Source: Betaproteobacteria bacterium
Lineage (GTDB): Bacteria; Pseudomonadota; Gammaproteobacteria; Burkholderiales; Casimicrobiaceae
Direction of reading: 5' to 3'
DNA: 43,921 nucleotides
Assembly (NCBI GenBank): GCA_005881895.1
Contig: VBCG01000023.1
Span: 1 to 43,921 of the forward strand
In this document: piece after piece, positions 12,777 through 22,296 of the stretch
Layout: the number at the start of each line of letters is the position of its first letter
How positions within the stretch are numbered: position 1 is the first letter of the stretch
The notes under the pieces: model-generated
What the model was told of the DNA's origin: nothing
Database searches by the model: none
Seen by the model: the letters and a program-made list of their open reading frames with translations, nothing else
Position numbers and translations under genes: made by a program

Positions 12777-13571
12777 ATGCAGGTCTACCTCGATTTCATG
12801 CGCCACGTGCGCGAGCACGGTCATCGCAAGGACGACCGGACCGGCACTGGGACGCTGTCCGTGTTCGGCTATCAGATGCGGGTCGACCTGCGTCGTGGAT
12901 TTCCTTTACTGACGACGAAGAAGGTCCATACCAAATCGATCATTCATGAGCTGCTGTGGTTTCTGCGCGGCGAGACCAACGTCCGTTCGTTGCAAGCCAA
13001 GGGCGTCACGATCTGGGATGAATGGGCGGACGGGAACGGCGATCTCGGGCCGATTTATGGATACCAGTGGCGCAGCTGGCCGGCCCCCGACGGCTCGCAT
13101 ATCGATCAGATCGCGCAAGTATTGGCAGAGATTCGGCGCAATCCGAATTCGCGCCGTTTGATCGTCTCGGCATGGAACGTCGCCGACATTCCGCGAACGA
13201 AATTGCCGCCGTGCCACGCGTTCTTTCAGTTCTACGTGGCGGACGGCCGCTTGTCCTGCCAACTGTATCAACGCAGCGCCGATATCTTTCTCGGTGTGCC
13301 GTTCAATATCGCTTCGTACGCGCTTTTGACGCACATGATGGCGCAGCAAAGCGATCTCGATGTGGGCGATTTTGTCTGGACCGGCGGCGATTGCCACTTG
13401 TACCTGAACCACATGGAGCAGGTCGAAACGCAACTGGCGCGAACGCCGCTGGCGCTTCCCAAGCTCGTCATCGCGCGCAAGCCTTCATCGATCTCGGACT
13501 ACCAATTCGAGGACTTCGCGTTCATCGGCTACGAGCCGCATCCGGCAATTAAGGCGCCAGTAGCTGTTTGA
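12777..13571 (+). CDS. thyA: Thymidylate synthase
   Basis: Makes dTMP from dUMP with 5,10-methylene-tetrahydrofolate, releasing dihydrofolate that FolA recycles. The 264-residue length equals E. coli ThyA. Signatures include [36 protein letters not shown], the active-site segment [12 protein letters not shown] with catalytic Cys146, [24 protein letters not shown] and [11 protein letters not shown]. The C-terminus ends IKAPVAV as expected. folA normally follows thyA directly in proteobacteria; here it is 4.7 kb downstream. A series of long hairpins begins seven bases after the stop. Confidence 0.98.
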
Positions 13572-13802: not shown

Positions 13803-13977
13803 TCGAAGCGGGGTGAGCCGCTGCGCGAAGGGCGCCTGTGGCGCAGTCGGCGAAGCGGGCGGCGCGGCCGTGTCGGCGGCGTTGGGTCGACGCTCGCGGC
13901 CGCGCCGGGATGTCCCGCTTTGACGACGTGGGTGCGGCACGCCGAAGCCCTTCGCGCAGCGGCTCATCCCGCTTCGA
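13803..13977. repeat. Long nested hairpin element C
   Basis: A 175-bp element with 31-base arms (13803-13833 and 13947-13977), complementary at 30 of 31 positions. It also has a perfect inner 10-bp pair (13861-13870 with 13897-13906). Together with elements A and B it fills nearly all of the 400 bp after thyA. No transposase or coding function is seen. Confidence 0.8.
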
Positions 13978-13994
13978 GACGGATGCGACGAACC

Positions 13995-14027
13995 AAAAAA
14001 AAGCCCGCCGGGAGGAATTTAGCGGGC
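13995..14027 (-). terminator. Rho-independent terminator of the small unit downstream of glrR
   Basis: Read on the minus strand: GCCCGC, a 13-base loop, GCGGGC, then eight T residues. This is a textbook intrinsic terminator. The only minus-strand unit it can serve is the small gene at 14108-14269 with its 3' region, or read-through from glrR. Between the small gene and the terminator lie two further hairpins, including a perfect GCCGGAC/GTCCGGC stem at about 14087-14104. Confidence 0.8.
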
Positions 14028-14107
14028 AAGGGGGATTTCGATGGTCGAGGCGTCAAACCCTGCCCCGCGAGGGTGTGCCGGACAAACGTGTCCGGCGGCG
14101 CAAAAAT

Positions 14108-14269
14108 CTAAAAGACGCTGCGTGCTGCCGTAACGCGTTCGGCCAACTCCTCCAGTGCGGCCTGTTGCGCGTTCGTCTCGTCGCTGCGGCGGTCGTTTTT
14201 CGCTTCGCCCGCAGTCGCCGACTGGCCCGTAAGCCAGTAGTGAGCGAACTCGGGAGCAAACGATTCCAT
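14108..14269 (-). CDS. Small protein (53 residues) in a probable sigma54-dependent unit
   Basis: An unrecognised reading frame starting MESFAPEFAHYWLTGQ and ending LAERVTAARSVF. It has an ideally placed ribosome binding site (GAGG seven bases before the ATG). Third codon positions are mostly G or C, as in neighbouring genes. The product is soluble-looking, with an aromatic N-terminal part and an Ala/Glu-rich, probably helical C-terminal half (NAQQAALEELAERVTAARS). No family is recognised. It starts about 38 bases downstream of the expected start of a sigma54 promoter and is followed by an intrinsic terminator. The frame may be real, or incidental to a small RNA of about 310 nt from the same promoter. 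Confidence 0.55.
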   Translation of the reverse strand: MESFAPEFAHYWLTGQSATAGEAKNDRRSDETNAQQAALEELAERVTAARSVF

Positions 14270-14317
14270 CACGACGCCTCGATGTTGGATAACGCTACCT
14301 GCGCTTGCTTATTCCAA

Positions 14318-14333
14318 AGCAAGCGACATGCCA
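14318..14333 (-). promoter_or_regulatory. Sigma54 (RpoN) promoter, -24/-12 type
   Basis: On the minus strand TGGCATGTCGCTTGCT matches the RpoN consensus TGGCACG-N4-TTGCW at every defined position except one (C to T). GG and GC have the obligatory spacing. Transcription would start near 14307 and run toward the small gene and its terminator. RpoN promoters need an enhancer-binding activator; a gene for one (GlrR-type) lies immediately upstream. Confidence 0.7.
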
Positions 14334-14397
14334 TCCAATAGTCGAAGGAGTGTCCGCGCGACTTACGACTGCTTTTGCGGTGCTGAGCGGCGAATTC

Positions 14398-14443
14398 GAT
14401 GCTGCAATTGCACACGACACATTGAGGAGAGATGCTGCAATTG
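14398..14443. repeat. Pair of 13-bp direct repeats upstream of the sigma54 promoter
   Basis: GATGCTGCAATTG occurs at 14398-14410 and again at 14431-14443, 33 bp apart (about three helical turns). The first copy includes the palindrome TGCAATTGCA. Identical phasing of two copies suggests a DNA-binding protein; which one is unknown. Confidence 0.5.
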
Positions 14444-14459
14444 TCGCGATTCGCAGACG
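14442..14459. promoter_or_regulatory. Second GlrR-like site, near match
   Basis: TGTC-N10-GACG, one base off the TGTC-N10-GACA motif. It is centred about 143 bp upstream of the predicted sigma54 transcription start, at a distance normal for enhancer-binding proteins. It overlaps the end of the second direct repeat. Confidence 0.45.
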
Positions 14460-14506
14460 CTTGTTGTGGCGATTATGTTATCCCTATGATCCGCAATGAC
14501 TAAAAA

Positions 14507-14524
14507 TGTCGCTATTTGACGACA
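14507..14524. promoter_or_regulatory. GlrR-like binding site (TGTC-N10-GACA)
   Basis: Perfect TGTC-N10-GACA, the motif described for GlrR upstream of the enterobacterial glmY and glmZ genes. It lies 37 bp after the glrR stop and about 210 bp upstream of the predicted sigma54 transcription start. Confidence 0.6.
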
Positions 14525-14560
14525 GGAATGCTTTGTCTGGCCCAATCGCGGCCGACGAGC

Positions 14561-15916
14561 CTAGGCTTTGCCTTCTTTGAACATGGCCGGTTCGAGCCGG
14601 TGGCGCTGCAGCAGCTTGTAGAACTCCGTGCGGTTGCGCTTCGCAAGCTGCGCCGCCTGCGTGACGTTTCCCCCGGTTATCTTGAGAAGCCGCGCGAGGT
14701 AATCGCGTTCGAATGTTTTGCGCGCCTCTTCGAACGGCACCAGCGCGGCGGCGTCTTCCTTGAGCGCCTTCTGGACGAGCGACGCCGGGATGACGGGCGT
14801 CGGCGTCAAAGCGACCGCCTGCTCGAGCAGGTTCAAAAGTTGCCGCACATTGCCCGGCCAGGGTGCCGCAACCAGCGACGCCATCGCATCGGGCGCCAAC
14901 GTCGGCGCGGGCTTGCGATAACGCTCCGACAAATTGCGCAGAATGTGGGCCGCCAGAAGTGGGATGTCCTCGCGGCGCTGCGACAGCGACGGCAGGTGCA
15001 GCGAAACGACGTTCAGCCGGTAATAAAGATCTTCGCGGAAACGCCCGCTCGCCCGCTGTTCCTCGAGATCGCGATGAGTGGCCGATATCACGCGCACGTC
15101 CACGGGTATCGCCTGGGTCGATCCGACAGGTCTCACTTCGCTTTCCTGCAACACCCGCAACAACTTGACTTGCAACGGGAGCGGCATATCACCGATTTCG
15201 TCCAGGAACAACGTGCCGCGGTCGGCCGCTTGAAAAAGCCCCTTATGCGCGGCAATCGCGCCCGTGAACGCGCCGCGTGCATGCCCGAACAGCTCCGATT
15301 CGAGCAGCTCCGCTGGAATCGCGCCGCAATTTACCCCGACGAAAGGCTTTTCGCGACGTGAACTTGCCCGATGAATCGCCCGCGCGAGCAACTCCTTCCC
15401 GGTGCCCGAATCGCCATAGATCAGCACGCTCGCGTCGGAGTCGGCGACGAGCCGGGCCTGCCGCAACAAGTCCTCCATCTTCGGACTGCGCGTGATGATG
15501 CCTTCGCGCCACGCAGTCGCTTCGCTGTCGCCGACCGCGACGTCATCGCCGGACAGTTTGAGGGCGGCGGCAACTTTCTGAAGGAGATCCTGGCTGTCGA
15601 ACGGCTTCGTGAGGAAGGCGAATACGCCGCGTTGTGTCGCGTTGACGGCATCGGGAATCGTGCCGTGCGCGGTGAGAATGATGACCGGCATCGCCGGATG
15701 CTGCCGATGGATCGCCTCGAACAGCTGCAGCCCGTCGATGCCCGGCATCCGCATGTCGGTAATTACCGTTCCCGGACGAGCGATCGCGAGTGCCGCCAGC
15801 GCTGTCTCGCCGCTGTCCGCCGTGCGAACGCGATAGCCAGCCGACATGAGCCGGAGGCTGATCAACCGGAGCAGATCAGGATCGTCGTCGACGAGCAGAA
15901 TGTCGCCGGTGTTCAT
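14561..15916 (-). CDS. glrR: Sigma54-dependent response regulator, GlrR/QseF type
   Basis: Two-component activator of RpoN promoters (451 residues). The receiver domain (1-120) has the acidic pocket at D10-D12, phospho-acceptor Asp54 in VITDMRMPG and Lys104 in LTKPFD. The AAA+ domain (about 140-370) has Walker A GDSGTGKE (168-175), the sigma54-contact loop GAFTGA (215-220), Walker B LFLDEIGD and the arginine region FREDLYYRLNVVSLHLPSL. The C-terminal Fis-type helix-turn-helix includes GGNVTQAAQLAKRNRTEFYKLL. It is the third gene of an operon with a lipoprotein and the sensor kinase, the same order as E. coli glrK-qseG-glrR. A matching binding motif and an RpoN promoter lie directly downstream. 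Confidence 0.93.
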   Translation of the reverse strand: MNTGDILLVDDDPDLLRLISLRLMSAGYRVRTADSGETALAALAIARPGTVITDMRMPGIDGLQLFEAIHRQHPAMPVIILTAHGTIPDAVNATQRGVFAFLTKPFDSQDLLQKVAAALKLSGDDVAVGDSEATAWREGIITRSPKMEDLLRQARLVADSDASVLIYGDSGTGKELLARAIHRASSRREKPFVGVNCGAIPAELLESELFGHARGAFTGAIAAHKGLFQAADRGTLFLDEIGDMPLPLQVKLLRVLQESEVRPVGSTQAIPVDVRVISATHRDLEEQRASGRFREDLYYRLNVVSLHLPSLSQRREDIPLLAAHILRNLSERYRKPAPTLAPDAMASLVAAPWPGNVRQLLNLLEQAVALTPTPVIPASLVQKALKEDAAALVPFEEARKTFERDYLARLLKITGGNVTQAAQLAKRNRTEFYKLLQRHRLEPAMFKEGKA

Positions 15917-15934: not shown

Positions 15935-16672
15935 TCAGCGTCCACTTCCGCCGGCCCCGCCGCCGCCGCCGCCACCGCCACCGCTACGCACGCGATCGCG
16001 CATCAAGCTCCTTTCCATCTCACGCAACGCTTCAAGCTTCTGGATCACCTTGTCGGCCTTTTGCTGTTCGTCGTGGACGGCTTTTTGTCGCTCGGTCACC
16101 TGCGCCTGCAGCACCGCTGCAAGCTGCTTGATCGGCGTCGGTCCGGGGTCACTTTTCGCCACGTTTTCGAATAGCTGCAACGCGCGTTGATCGTCCGCCG
16201 GCGTCGCTCGAACCATCGTATAGAGCACGGCAAGGCGCACCCGATTCGCGTCGGAGCGCTGGCGCCCCAGGGCAGCCGAGGCGTTCGCGAGCTCTCGACG
16301 CAGGTCATCGACGGACATTCCGCCGTAACGCTGAAGATCGGCGAGGAGCGCGAGCAACTGCTGGTCCTCGGTCGGCTCAGCCGGCGGCGCCGGCGGCGCG
16401 GCAAACGCTGCAACGTTCGTGGGCGGCTCCCGCAACGGCTCCGGCGGGACCGCAAGCGGTTGGGATGTCGGTCGTTCCGGCGGCGAGGCGGGCGGTGGTG
16501 GAGGCTCGACGGGATCGATCGGCGGCGCCTCCGCGGCCGGCGTCATCGGCAAAATGGTCACCGACTCTGGCTCGTACTGCTCCTGTGGCGTCAATACGAC
16601 GGTGGGTTTCGTCGCGCAGCCGGCCATGAATACCGTGATCAATACCGCAAGCAGCACACGGCGAGCCGTCAT
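15935..16672 (-). CDS. Lipoprotein of the glrKR operon (QseG-like position)
   Basis: Predicted lipoprotein of 245 residues: signal peptide MTARRVLLAVLITVFMAGC with the lipobox ending at Cys19. A long Pro/Glu/Ala-rich linker (about 45-110) leads to a helical domain (DQQLLALLADLQRYGGMSVDDL, VRLAVLYTMV) and a coiled coil (QKAVHDEQQKADKVIQKLEALREM). The C-terminal tail is almost pure glycine. The ATG at 16672 overlaps the TGA of the kinase gene (ATGA), so translation is probably coupled. In enterobacteria the gene in this slot, qseG, encodes an outer-membrane lipoprotein that modulates the kinase. I infer the same role from position and architecture, not from clear sequence identity. Confidence 0.75.
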   Translation of the reverse strand: MTARRVLLAVLITVFMAGCATKPTVVLTPQEQYEPESVTILPMTPAAEAPPIDPVEPPPPPASPPERPTSQPLAVPPEPLREPPTNVAAFAAPPAPPAEPTEDQQLLALLADLQRYGGMSVDDLRRELANASAALGRQRSDANRVRLAVLYTMVRATPADDQRALQLFENVAKSDPGPTPIKQLAAVLQAQVTERQKAVHDEQQKADKVIQKLEALREMERSLMRDRVRSGGGGGGGGGAGGSGR

Positions 16673-18153
16673 TTGATGCCCGCCAACGTCACCGGCTTGG
16701 CGGCTGCGCTCTTCACCGAAAATGCGCCGGCCGCTAACGGCAGCGAAAGACGAAACCACGCGCCGTGTTTGCCGTCCGATCGCTGCAAAAGTTCGATGCG
16801 CCCGCCGTGCACGACTGCGTATTCGCGTGCGATCGCGAGCCCAAGGCCGGATCCTTTGACGCGGCCTTCGGCAGGCGCAGGTCCCTGGTAGAACGAATCG
16901 AAAATGCGCTCGCGATCGTCGAGCGCGACGCCGGGTCCTTCGTCGACGACGTCGAGAATCGCGTTCGACGCCTCGGTGCTAACGCGCAGCTCGATCGCGC
17001 CGGAGCGCGGCGAATATTTGATCGCGTTGGACACGAGGTTATCGACGACCGTGCGAATCTTCTCGGCGTCGCCAATGATGAGCGCCGGCTTGAGCTTCGT
17101 GTCGAACGAAATCATCCGCGCCAGCGCCGCCAGCTTTTGTTCGCGCAGCACGCGTGCAACGACGTCCGACAACGCGATCGGACCGAGCGTCACCGGTTCC
17201 ATCGCGCGGGTTTGATGATAGGCGAGCAGATCCTCGATCAGCTTCTGCAATTGCAGCGTGTTCTCGCGGACGATGCGGACGATATCCTGCTGCTCGGAAT
17301 TCAACTTGCCGCCGACGTTATCGCGAAGCAGCTCCGCACCTTCCCGAACGGCGGTAAGCGGCGTTTTCAATTCATGCGAGACGTGGCGCAGGAAGCGTGT
17401 CTGCTGTTGCTCGAGCTCGGACAGCCTTGCACGCAGCCATTCCAGCCGCTGACCCACATAGCGCAAATCCTGCGGGCCCGAAACGCGAATCGCATGCGTA
17501 AAGTCGGCGGTGCCCATTTGCCGAATCGCCTGATCGAGTTGCCGAATCGGCCGGGCGATCAGCACGGCAAACACGATCGCGAGCGCAATGGCAATCGCGA
17601 CGGTCGCGAGCCCGAACCAGAACCACTTCTCGCGCCCGCGGCTCGCGGTTTCCTGCAGCCGCTCGATCGCGTGCTGCGTGAGTTGATTCGTGGCTGCCGT
17701 CGCTTCACGTGTGCCGTCGACGAGCTTCGCGTATCCGTCGACGATTTGCGTGGCGATCTCGGGTGTACGCTTCGGTGACGTCAGGCTTTGATAGAGACGA
17801 TTCTCCTGGTCGGCGAGGTCATTGAGCGCCGCGATTTGCGACGGTTCCAGCGGCAGCGACGCGAGCTCCCGCGCCGCGACGCGGAAATCTTCACGCACGT
17901 GCGCGTAATCTTCGAGCAGCAAGTTGTCTTCGAGAATGAGGTGCTGGCGCGCAATGCGCTCGAGCGTCGCCGTCTGTTCGAACATCAGACGGCTCGTCCG
18001 CCCCGCTTGGGCCGCCTGCAGCACTTCCGTACCGGCCTGCGACGATAAGCGGTCGAGCGACAGGATCAATTCGGCGAGCGCGTAGACCAAGGGCAGGCTG
18101 ACCAGCAGGAAGCCCAGCAAGATGAACTTGAGGAACGAACGGGGGTAATACAC
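16669..18153 (-). CDS. glrK: Sensor histidine kinase, GlrK/QseE type
   Basis: Inner-membrane kinase of 494 residues. An N-terminal membrane segment (FLKFILLGFLLVSLPLVYALAEL) is followed by a helical periplasmic sensor region of about 145 residues. The second membrane segment (about 178-200) leads to HAMP (RPIRQLDQAIRQMGTADF). The dimerisation domain has phospho-acceptor His260 in RHVSHELKTPLTAVREG. The ATPase domain carries the N-box (DNLVSNAIKYS), G1 (DVVDEGPGV) and G2 (GSGLGLAIARE). It is first in the operon kinase-lipoprotein-regulator and is divergent from folA. E. coli GlrK/QseE reacts to envelope or hormone-like signals; the signal here is unknown. Confidence 0.92.
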   Translation of the reverse strand: MYYPRSFLKFILLGFLLVSLPLVYALAELILSLDRLSSQAGTEVLQAAQAGRTSRLMFEQTATLERIARQHLILEDNLLLEDYAHVREDFRVAARELASLPLEPSQIAALNDLADQENRLYQSLTSPKRTPEIATQIVDGYAKLVDGTREATAATNQLTQHAIERLQETASRGREKWFWFGLATVAIAIALAIVFAVLIARPIRQLDQAIRQMGTADFTHAIRVSGPQDLRYVGQRLEWLRARLSELEQQQTRFLRHVSHELKTPLTAVREGAELLRDNVGGKLNSEQQDIVRIVRENTLQLQKLIEDLLAYHQTRAMEPVTLGPIALSDVVARVLREQKLAALARMISFDTKLKPALIIGDAEKIRTVVDNLVSNAIKYSPRSGAIELRVSTEASNAILDVVDEGPGVALDDRERIFDSFYQGPAPAEGRVKGSGLGLAIAREYAVVHGGRIELLQRSDGKHGAWFRLSLPLAAGAFSVKSAAAKPVTLAGIK

Positions 18154-21119: not shown

Positions 21120-21223
21120 AGCATGTCGACCGACGACGGCCGCTGGACGCTACGTCCGGGTGACTGCGTTGTCAATGCCGGCGAGTCGTGAGTGAGACGG
21201 TGCCGCCTGAGATCGGACGCCGC

Positions 21224-22273
21224 ATGAAATTGACGCTGTCCGATTTCGATTACGCGCTTCCGCCTGATTTGATCGCACAAGCGCCGGCGGACGAGCGGAC
21301 GTCGAGCCGGCTCCTGCACGTCGCTGGCGACGCGTTCGCCGATTTGCACTTTCGCGATTTGCCCGAGCTTATTGCGCCGGGTGATCTCCTCGTGCTCAAC
21401 GACACGCGAGTGATCCGCGCACGGCTTATCGGCCGCAAGCCGACCGGCGGACGCGTCGAGGCGCTGATCGAGCGAATCGTCGATCGCAATGAGGCGTGGC
21501 TGCAGATCAAGGCGAGCCACATGCCGAAGATCGGGTCGTCGATCGACTTTGCCGGGCGGGCGACCGCAACGGTGGTTGCGCGGGACGAGCGTTTGTTCCG
21601 ACTGCGCTTCGACATCGACGAACCGCTTCTCGAATGGCTCGAGCGGCACGGCGAAGTGCCGTTGCCGCCTTACATCACGCGGCAGATCGGCGATGACGAT
21701 GCGCGTCGGTACCAAACCGTGTACGCGCGGTACGCCGGCGCAGTGGCAGCGCCCACAGCCGGCCTTCACTTCGACACATCGATGCTGGCGGCGCTCGCGC
21801 GGCGCGGCGTGGGAACAGCGTTCGTCACGCTCCACGTCGGCGCGGGCACATTCTCGCCCGTCGAATCCAAGAACCTTTCGCAGCATCGAATGCATGCCGA
21901 AAGATTTGATGTTCCGGCGACCACAGCTCAAGCGATCGCGATCACGCGTGCTCGCGGCGGACGTATTCTGGCTGTCGGGACGACGACGTTGCGGGCGCTC
22001 GAGTCTGCGGCCGACGCTGGCGGCGGCGTGCAGCCCCTGACCGGCGAGACACGCCTCTTCATCATCCCCGGATTCCGCTTCCGCGTCGTCGATCGCCTGC
22101 TCACCAATTTTCATCTGCCGAAGTCGACGCTGCTGATGCTCGTGTCGGCGTTCGCCGGAATGGAAACGGTTCGCCGCGCTTATCGACATGCGGTCGCCAA
22201 GCGGTACCGTTTCTTCAGCTACGGCGATGCAATGCTCATCGATCGGACAGACGGCGATTCGGCGAATGGATAG
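21224..22273 (+). CDS. queA: S-adenosylmethionine:tRNA ribosyltransferase-isomerase
   Basis: Converts 7-aminomethyl-deazaguanine in tRNA to epoxyqueuosine using the ribosyl part of SAM, two steps after Tgt acts. From the ATG at 21224 the 349 residues begin MKLTLSDFDYALPPDLIAQ. They carry the family blocks DLLVLNDTRVIRARLIGRK, GHGEVPLPPYI-type segment (RHGEVPLPPYI), GAVAAPTAGLHFDT, FVTLHVGAGTFSPV and LTNFHLPKSTLLMLVSAFAG. The open frame extends 12 codons upstream, outside the family pattern. queA and tgt are usually adjacent; here a terminator and a secreted-protein gene lie between them. Confidence 0.96.
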   Translation: MKLTLSDFDYALPPDLIAQAPADERTSSRLLHVAGDAFADLHFRDLPELIAPGDLLVLNDTRVIRARLIGRKPTGGRVEALIERIVDRNEAWLQIKASHMPKIGSSIDFAGRATATVVARDERLFRLRFDIDEPLLEWLERHGEVPLPPYITRQIGDDDARRYQTVYARYAGAVAAPTAGLHFDTSMLAALARRGVGTAFVTLHVGAGTFSPVESKNLSQHRMHAERFDVPATTAQAIAITRARGGRILAVGTTTLRALESAADAGGGVQPLTGETRLFIIPGFRFRVVDRLLTNFHLPKSTLLMLVSAFAGMETVRRAYRHAVAKRYRFFSYGDAMLIDRTDGDSANG

Positions 22274-22296
22274 TGTCGCCCACGGGCGACATTTTT
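22274..22296 (+). terminator. Rho-independent terminator after queA
   Basis: TGTCGCC/GGCGACA stem with a four-base loop, directly after the queA stop and followed by five T residues. It should separate queA from the genes downstream. Confidence 0.75.

Follow-up and report, generated by a model that had tools for sequence, protein, structure and literature searches.

In Enterobacterales, the GlrK-GlrR (QseE-QseF) two-component system is linked to the small RNAs GlmY and GlmZ, which are transcribed in the glrKR neighborhood from sigma54 promoters with paired TGTC-N10-GACA sites. QseF controls glmY through this site consensus, and glmY lies upstream of the kinase gene (PMC8745638). Three other systems offer precedents for anti-Shine-Dalgarno RNAs. 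In CcaF1-CcsR1-4 (CIN1) of Rhodobacter sphaeroides, a small protein gene followed by RNAs forms one transcript from an RpoHI/HII promoter (PMC10253847); NfeR1 is described as silencing mRNAs at ribosome sites through CCUCCUCCC motifs (PMC10746234); and S17 is processed from a longer transcript, which holds a putative 32-residue ORF, to a 67-nt form annealing at ribosome sites (PMC11722255). In the best-ranked part of the open-licence literature, no description of a betaproteobacterial GlrR unit was found, and a link from GlrR to a small RNA is described there only for enterobacteria, although absence is not proven by so partial a search.

The DNA stretch analyzed here (hereinafter the window, 43,921 nucleotides) encodes on its minus strand a glrK-like sensor histidine kinase (16669..18153, HisKA and HATPase_c domains) and, downstream of it, GlrR, a sigma54-dependent response regulator (14561..15916, Response_reg and Sigma54_activat domains). 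The NCBIfam GlrR model is the best match for the regulator at 641 bits, which is below its own cut-off of 763, with the runner-up at 424. Between the two, in the position of qseG (glrL), is a gene for a putative lipoprotein (15935..16759, minus strand) with a lipobox-like stretch recognized by eye; no Pfam or NCBIfam model matches this ORF above the cut-off, and its identity as qseG is inferred from position alone. The genome also encodes a RapZ homolog and RpoN, the lack of which would have refuted the first-pass annotation of this locus.

That annotation had placed a pair of GlrR sites, a sigma54 promoter, an open frame and a terminator immediately after glrR, and all four are present on the minus strand at the coordinates it gave. 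Site 1, TGTCGTCAAATAGCGACA, is a perfect TGTC-N10-GACA (14507..14524), and site 2, CGTCTGCGAATCGCGACA, is CGTC-N10-GACA, with one mismatch (14442..14459); the two are 65 bp apart, start to start. The predicted sigma54 promoter, TGGCATGTCGCTTGCT (14318..14333), deviates by one mismatch from TGGCACG-N4-TTGC, and transcription is expected to start near 14307, for which there are no expression data. A small ORF of 53 codons (14108..14269; ATG at 14269, stop ending at 14108) is preceded by GAGG 7 nt upstream, and the terminator hairpin GCCCGC..GCGGGC (14003..14027) is followed by 8 T (T-run 13995-14002). Two features were missing from the annotation: an IHF-like position between the GlrR sites (14479..14491, minus strand), degenerate in the window and better in relatives, and a conserved 3' RNA element (13995..14042, minus strand; alignment A2, RNA model R1) that consists of the single-stranded C-rich stretch AAUCCCCCUU and the terminator hairpin, with the anti-Shine-Dalgarno motif CCTCC in its loop (14011..14015). 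The covariance model R1 matches this element in the window with an E-value of 2.9e-10. The unit is bounded by the convergent thyA gene (12777..13571, plus strand; NCBIfam thymidylate synthase, above the cut-off). No minus-strand terminator was detected between the ORF and 14027 in a scan limited to loops of 3-8, and co-transcription of the small ORF with the 3' RNA element is inferred.

Two further sequence features of the window are recorded here as such. A 13-nt perfect direct repeat (14398-14410 and 14431-14443) lies between GlrR site 2 and the promoter. A second perfect TGTC-N10-GACA (22274-22291) directly follows the stop codon of the ORF 21188-22273, which is queA by reading of the sequence; this site is a near-perfect palindrome, which suggests a terminator stem.

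A homolog search covered 61 genomes, 37 of them, including the window, from the window's family (f1). Orthologs of glrR were identified in 33 of the 37; the best matches in the remaining genomes (G013, G021, G023 and G031, E-values 1e-86 to 1e-90) are taken, on sequence grounds, to be a paralog. Among 30 extracted family glrR loci, window included, 27 contain the site pair with at most one mismatch per site, and the spacing is exactly 65 bp in 24 of these 27 and 64, 66 or 67 bp in the others. The pair is accompanied by a sigma54 promoter with two or fewer mismatches in 26 of the 30 loci; in L022, a contig edge cuts the sequence off. Apart from this, the exceptions are L025 (genome G012), where a complete unit (L213) is separated from glrR by about 5 kb that contains other genes, and two loci of the genus g2 (L030 and L031), where the unit is carried elsewhere rather than beside glrR. 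Within this genus, some 30 kb separate the unit of G022 from glrR. The g2 units also have a weaker sigma54 match, with one or two mismatches; each site of G033 has one mismatch with a spacing of 66 bp, and the two sites found in G319 lie 107 bp apart.

An IHF-type sequence, WATCARNNNNTTR, is found within one mismatch in 64 of 74 inter-site spacers, compared with 314 of 3700 shuffles and 16 of 74 control segments, and 50 of those 64 matches are at offset 15 or 16 after site 1. In the window, the best match has three mismatches and lies elsewhere in the spacer, which counts against the interpretation favored below; the sequence at the fixed offset (14479..14491) also has three mismatches, counted by hand.

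Control by GlrR, as proposed in the first-pass annotation, is supported by the conserved paired sites and the presence of rpoN, and the same pattern also retrieves loci of the glmY/glmZ type as defined by a motif rule. The annotation had further stated that relatives with glrR and without the promoter and sites would speak against it. Such relatives do exist in part: G022, G028 and G033 carry the unit away from glrR, and, in a further set of 100 glrR loci, all but one from outside the family, 52 do not satisfy strict criteria for the unit. A search for a wider regulon, with one site and a sigma54 promoter at 62-92 bp, yielded nothing in the 37 family genomes, but this range says little because the unit's own gap between site and promoter is larger, 94-121 bp.

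Taken singly, the motifs are unremarkable in the 44-kb window: perfect upstream sites number 2 against 0.58 expected, with 9 of 100 shuffles having two or more, and sigma54-type sites with at most one mismatch number 1 against 3.24 expected. It is the combination that is remarkable. When the 600 bp following glrR were dinucleotide-shuffled 20,000 times, two sites 60-70 bp from each other, one of them perfect, arose once, and the full ordered set of pair, promoter, frame and terminator never did. The site-pair pattern matches 29 of the 37 family genomes and the same pattern reversed only one; in 24 genomes outside the family, the respective numbers are 8 and 3. Conservation across genomes, as far as sequence comparison can tell, is stronger evidence for the unit than the shuffle test.

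The small ORF was detected in 29 of the 37 family genomes, 23 of them in the first round and G005, G022, G027, G028, G012 and G033 thereafter, the last with a weak match (E-value 3.9e-5). Among 27 aligned sequences, the predicted proteins are 48-57 residues long and acidic (pI 4.1-5.0; 53 aa and pI 4.7 in the window), with a conserved C-terminus, LAERVxAARSxV, and the invariant residues M1, L42, A48, A49 and R50. In 12 chosen pairs, dN/dS is 0.11-0.49, and substitutions at the three codon positions in the first six pairs number 39/40/88. This pattern of substitutions identifies the ORF as a real protein gene under purifying selection, with translation itself being inferred. AlphaFold predicts a single helix with modest confidence (mean pLDDT 72, pTM 0.37). 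The window protein fits no Pfam, NCBIfam or PHROGs family, and the Pfam search gave no DUF1127 match at E-values up to 1. Searching 300 genomes of the order with the small protein retrieved 10 matches, 8 of them in family members; the 2 outside (G153 and G258) are weak, lie inside long open frames and were rejected. By sequence, then, the protein appears confined to one family, which counts against the favored reading, as does the absence of a Shine-Dalgarno sequence, by a simple pattern, from 10 of 22 orthologous ORFs.

The ORF and the RNA end do not always occur together. Three genomes (G026, G032 and G036) keep the promoter and the RNA end and have no small ORF, and four (G017, G022, G028 and G033) possess the ORF without an R1-type RNA end. 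Three of these four belong to g2 and have another CCUCC hairpin; in G017 (L009), the sites, promoter and ORF are kept and the C-rich end is missing, an observation unfavorable to the reading preferred here. The first-pass annotation had left it undecided whether the product was an RNA, a small protein or both; with the ORF under purifying selection and the 3' RNA end conserved independently, the answer is both, and it is very probable that the transcript yields two products. The lineages with only the RNA or only the protein provide natural controls for separating the two functions.

Alignment A2 comprises 27 3' ends (26 from the family and L166) that were picked by a pattern requiring CCTCC. 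Beyond this selection, the sequences share three features: the C-tract, the T-run, and either GCCC-GC or GCCC-AC together with its partner. Because the source sequences were picked for CCTCC, conservation measured on A2 or with model R1 is partly built in. The fair measure of CCTCC conservation is a scan for hairpins followed by a T-run in the window and 61 loci, which was not filtered for this motif: among the 26 family loci in which the promoter is present, 24 have CCTCC in the terminator loop, and only L008 and L009 do not. L008 (G002) does have the R1 match and the C-tract, with CCCCTCTCCC in place of CCTCC in the terminator loop, which counts against the favored interpretation; by eye, CCTCC is found there in a hairpin upstream of the terminator. 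The terminator stem consists of six pairs, with one compensatory change, from G-C to A-U, in 4 sequences. Since stem covariation is limited to this single pair, the case for an RNA function rests on conservation of the loop and the C-tract. In the predicted fold of the full window transcript, the C-tract is single-stranded and CCUCC is in a loop; the presence of CCUCC in an unpaired region is seen both in this fold and in the hairpin scan. The fold of the whole transcript is barely better than those of shuffled sequences (z -1.6, 9 of 100 as good), a further point against.

A search with R1 finds exactly one match with an E-value below 1e-5 in each of 28 of the 37 family genomes, and all 28 sit at the GlrR-site unit; under such strict filters, weak copies may be lost. 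This single-copy occurrence and the restriction of CCTCC loops, in the sampled loci, to sites downstream of glrR make a generic terminator unlikely. The 3' architecture of the genus g2 differs from the R1 type, which again counts against the preferred reading: an alternative hairpin with the loop TTTCCTCCCCCGGTC occurs in each of the six g2 genomes seen; where its stem varies, pairing is mostly preserved, and the fold is weaker in G319. The form with RNA only also occurs in two named metagenome genomes (L143 and L166).

The unfiltered scan identified 139 hairpin-plus-T-run sites. CCTCC is in the loop of 30, all downstream of glrR, with the window and L002 representing the same site, and in none of the other 109. 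Three of the 30 come from other families (f11, f12 and f24). The sample consists mostly of glrR loci and is a local background rather than a genome-wide test. Of 95 such sites in another 100 glrR loci, 8 have a CCTCC loop (three in f19, two each in f24 and f26, and one in f38, apparently by chance); all 8 loci fall short of the strict unit criteria, although seven of them show imperfect sites and a sigma54-type element. Three of four genomes of family f48 have weak R1 matches, G202 being without one, which counts against the interpretation. In two of the three (G126, E-value 1.4e-4; G083, 3.7e-4), a C-rich, CCUCC-containing 3' end follows a SlyB-like ORF, named by eye, with a sigma54-type promoter upstream and GlrR sites before it (one perfect in G126, an imperfect pair in G083); the unit of G083 follows kinase and lipoprotein genes, and its glrR-like gene was found on another contig. 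In the third, G165, the match is found some 2.9 kb downstream of glrR, past other genes, which is equally unfavorable. R1 matches in G054, G278 and f34 are read as other RNAs or chance.

Family f23 (L056, L318, L308 and L313) shows a glrR-adjacent transcript without a convincing ORF and with a CCCTCC-containing RNA; the sigma54 match of L313 is poor, and the frame named in L308 by the first-ORF rule is taken as fortuitous. The four f23 loci are similar in their 3' part around GAGTGCGCCTTG. Elsewhere, stretches ending in CACCCCTTCTACCCGCCTCCTCGGCGGGTATTTTTTT were noticed in L232/L235 (G069:C6), where they are in tandem, and L234 (G113:C18), with sigma70-like promoters by eye; they are possibly another CCUCC-loop RNA, and no GlrR-type unit is seen there.

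Across 84,980 species genomes, the pattern of paired sites and a sigma54 promoter occurs in at least 119 loci. Among the matches listed, 54 are of the GlmY/GlmZ type by the motif rule, invariably with a site spacing of 63; an ORF follows the promoter in 47, the C-rich RNA end is found in 5, the sigma54 core is missing from 11, and 2 are other. For the ORF, C-rich and other classes together, the GlrR C-terminal motif is upstream on the same strand in 47 of 54 listed matches. Those ORFs that can be recognized resemble genes for OpgG, for BON-domain proteins and for other secreted proteins. These classes rest on motif and first-ORF rules, not on homology searches, and the names opgG, BON, SlyB-like, EF-hand and bactofilin were assigned by eye from the translations. 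A survey of the order produced 126 glrR matches in 119 of 300 genomes, and 100 of these matches were fetched and scored; the remaining 26 comprise 9 from family f1, 13 order-level loci not scored by that rule and 4 that were left out (the second copies in G126, G152 and G259, and G318). The strict criteria are met by 48 of the 100, across 17 families, and several of the loci scored as having no unit show imperfect sites by eye. Additional promoters of this type were also encountered: L042 and L043 (G030 and G024) contain a second paired-site sigma54 promoter before a predicted secreted protein, and both genomes carry a second GlrR-like gene; L044 and L048 (G047 and G046) have such promoters before a WecG/TagA-like glycosyltransferase and a bactofilin-like gene, identified by eye.

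The description of the locus as GlmY-like holds for its control, that is, the paired sites and the sigma54 promoter, and fails for the RNA, which has no GlmY/GlmZ match and an anti-Shine-Dalgarno end. Rfam searches for GlmY and GlmZ were negative both over the whole window at the gathering threshold and over 13900-14600 with E-values up to 10, and without a covariance-model match homology is rejected; unlike those RNAs, the window unit encodes a protein, has a CCUCC loop and lies downstream of glrR. In its arrangement, the unit resembles, by analogy, CcaF1-CcsR of alphaproteobacteria: an alternative-sigma promoter is followed by a small protein gene and a CCUCC RNA element in one predicted transcript. 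The CcsR RNAs carry CCUCC motifs. The two differ in the promoter (RpoHI/HII versus sigma54 with GlrR), in the number of RNAs (four versus one) and in the protein, CcaF1 having DUF1127 whereas the window protein is acidic and without a Pfam match above the cut-off.

The RNA element itself has no match above threshold in Rfam 15. NfeR1/alpha-r14 ("cuckoo", RF02344) shares with it the CCUCC anti-Shine-Dalgarno motif in unpaired regions; it is alphaproteobacterial and has three motif-bearing hairpins. RF02344 scores 17.5 bits in the window against a threshold of 58.8 and, in 12 relatives at E-values up to 1, matches only L007, at 30.9 bits; membership is rejected as below the gathering threshold. 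S17/bdhR1, the Betaproteobacteria toxic sRNA (RF02278), is likewise a betaproteobacterial RNA ending in a terminator, with a sigmaA promoter as opposed to the sigma54 promoter of the window unit, and RF02278 has no match at the window locus at E-values up to 10, so that membership is rejected here too. There is a sub-threshold RF02278 match elsewhere in the window's genome (L062, G000:C197:20387-20450; 40.4 bits, threshold 50). Other sub-threshold Rfam matches at the locus (narK, anti-hemB with 17.9 of 49.5 bits, and isrK) are taken as chance.

These observations are, in our estimation, somewhat better explained than not by a GlrR/sigma54 transcript that yields a small protein and a trans-acting anti-Shine-Dalgarno RNA, with the reservation that there are no expression data and no target has been identified. 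Under this model, phosphorylated GlrR would bind both sites, about 65 bp apart, and IHF would probably bring them together by bending; binding and the role of IHF are inferences from the conserved sites and spacer. GlrR would then activate sigma54 RNA polymerase at a promoter just downstream of its own gene, with initiation, like expression, being inferred from the promoter sequence, to produce a single transcript of about 313 nt that is translated into an acidic helical protein of about 53 residues, whose role is conjectural. The 3' end, with its single-stranded C-rich stretch and CCUCC-loop terminator, would act as a short RNA or be processed to one by RNase E, and this RNA may pair with Shine-Dalgarno regions of other mRNAs, repressing them. 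The repressed mRNAs would most likely be envelope-related and the repression would occur during envelope stress; processing, action in trans and the targets are all inferred.

If the locus were just a GlrR-controlled small-protein gene, with the C-rich CCUCC end merely its terminator, the purifying selection on the protein, the ORF without the RNA end in G017 and the ordinary protein genes after such promoters in many other families would all be accounted for. This we regard as unlikely, given the three genomes that keep the RNA end and promoter without the ORF, the comparable, weakly matching end that follows another ORF in f48, and a loop CCTCC, unneeded by a terminator, in 24 of 26 family loci and in none of the other 109 hairpin-plus-T sites. 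The same three genomes have no ORF to regulate and on that account also weaken the idea that the 3' element acts on its own mRNA, by governing its stability or translation, and not on others. A role in cis is suggested by a 10-nt perfect complementarity between 14045-14054 in the 3' UTR and 14273-14282 over the ORF ribosome site, but this pairing beats shuffles at p <0.05 in only 2 of 22 loci; conserved pairing of the 5' and 3' UTRs is rejected as window-specific, and cis action is considered rather improbable. Neither this role nor a protein-only locus is excluded, and both remain open.

The two remaining alternatives fare worse against the data. The regulator and promoter architecture shared with glmY, and a RapZ homolog in the genome, would suit an RNA that, as GlmY does, acts as a decoy for a protein, RapZ being a hypothetical example; with no GlmY/GlmZ match at E-values up to 10 and a conserved part that is a C-rich terminator, this proposal has very little to recommend it. 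That the RNA is the sole product and the frame fortuitous is compatible with the three genomes that have the RNA without the frame, and is barely credible in view of dN/dS below 0.5 in 12 of 12 chosen pairs, the excess of third-position substitutions and the four genomes that retain the ORF without an R1-type RNA end.

Turning from these alternatives back to the transcript with a small protein and a trans-acting RNA, a broader generalization can be put forward, if only as a tentative and rather doubtful possibility. In Burkholderiales, the glrR-adjacent enhancer might be a fixed slot in which the coding product is swapped by lineage (small protein, SlyB-like, BON, EF-hand or OpgG) or absent, with the constant part in several lineages being an RNA end that bears CCUCC, or, in one family, a CCUCC RNA that stands on its own. 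GlrR would then be a general activator of anti-Shine-Dalgarno RNAs, and GlmY/GlmZ the enterobacterial version of the same RNA-controlling role.

If the favored interpretation is correct, the locus would add an RNA element that no Rfam 15 family matches above threshold and a small protein for which Pfam, NCBIfam and PHROGs have no model. The link from GlrR to small RNAs would extend to Burkholderiales, and the output of a widely conserved envelope two-component system would become directly testable.
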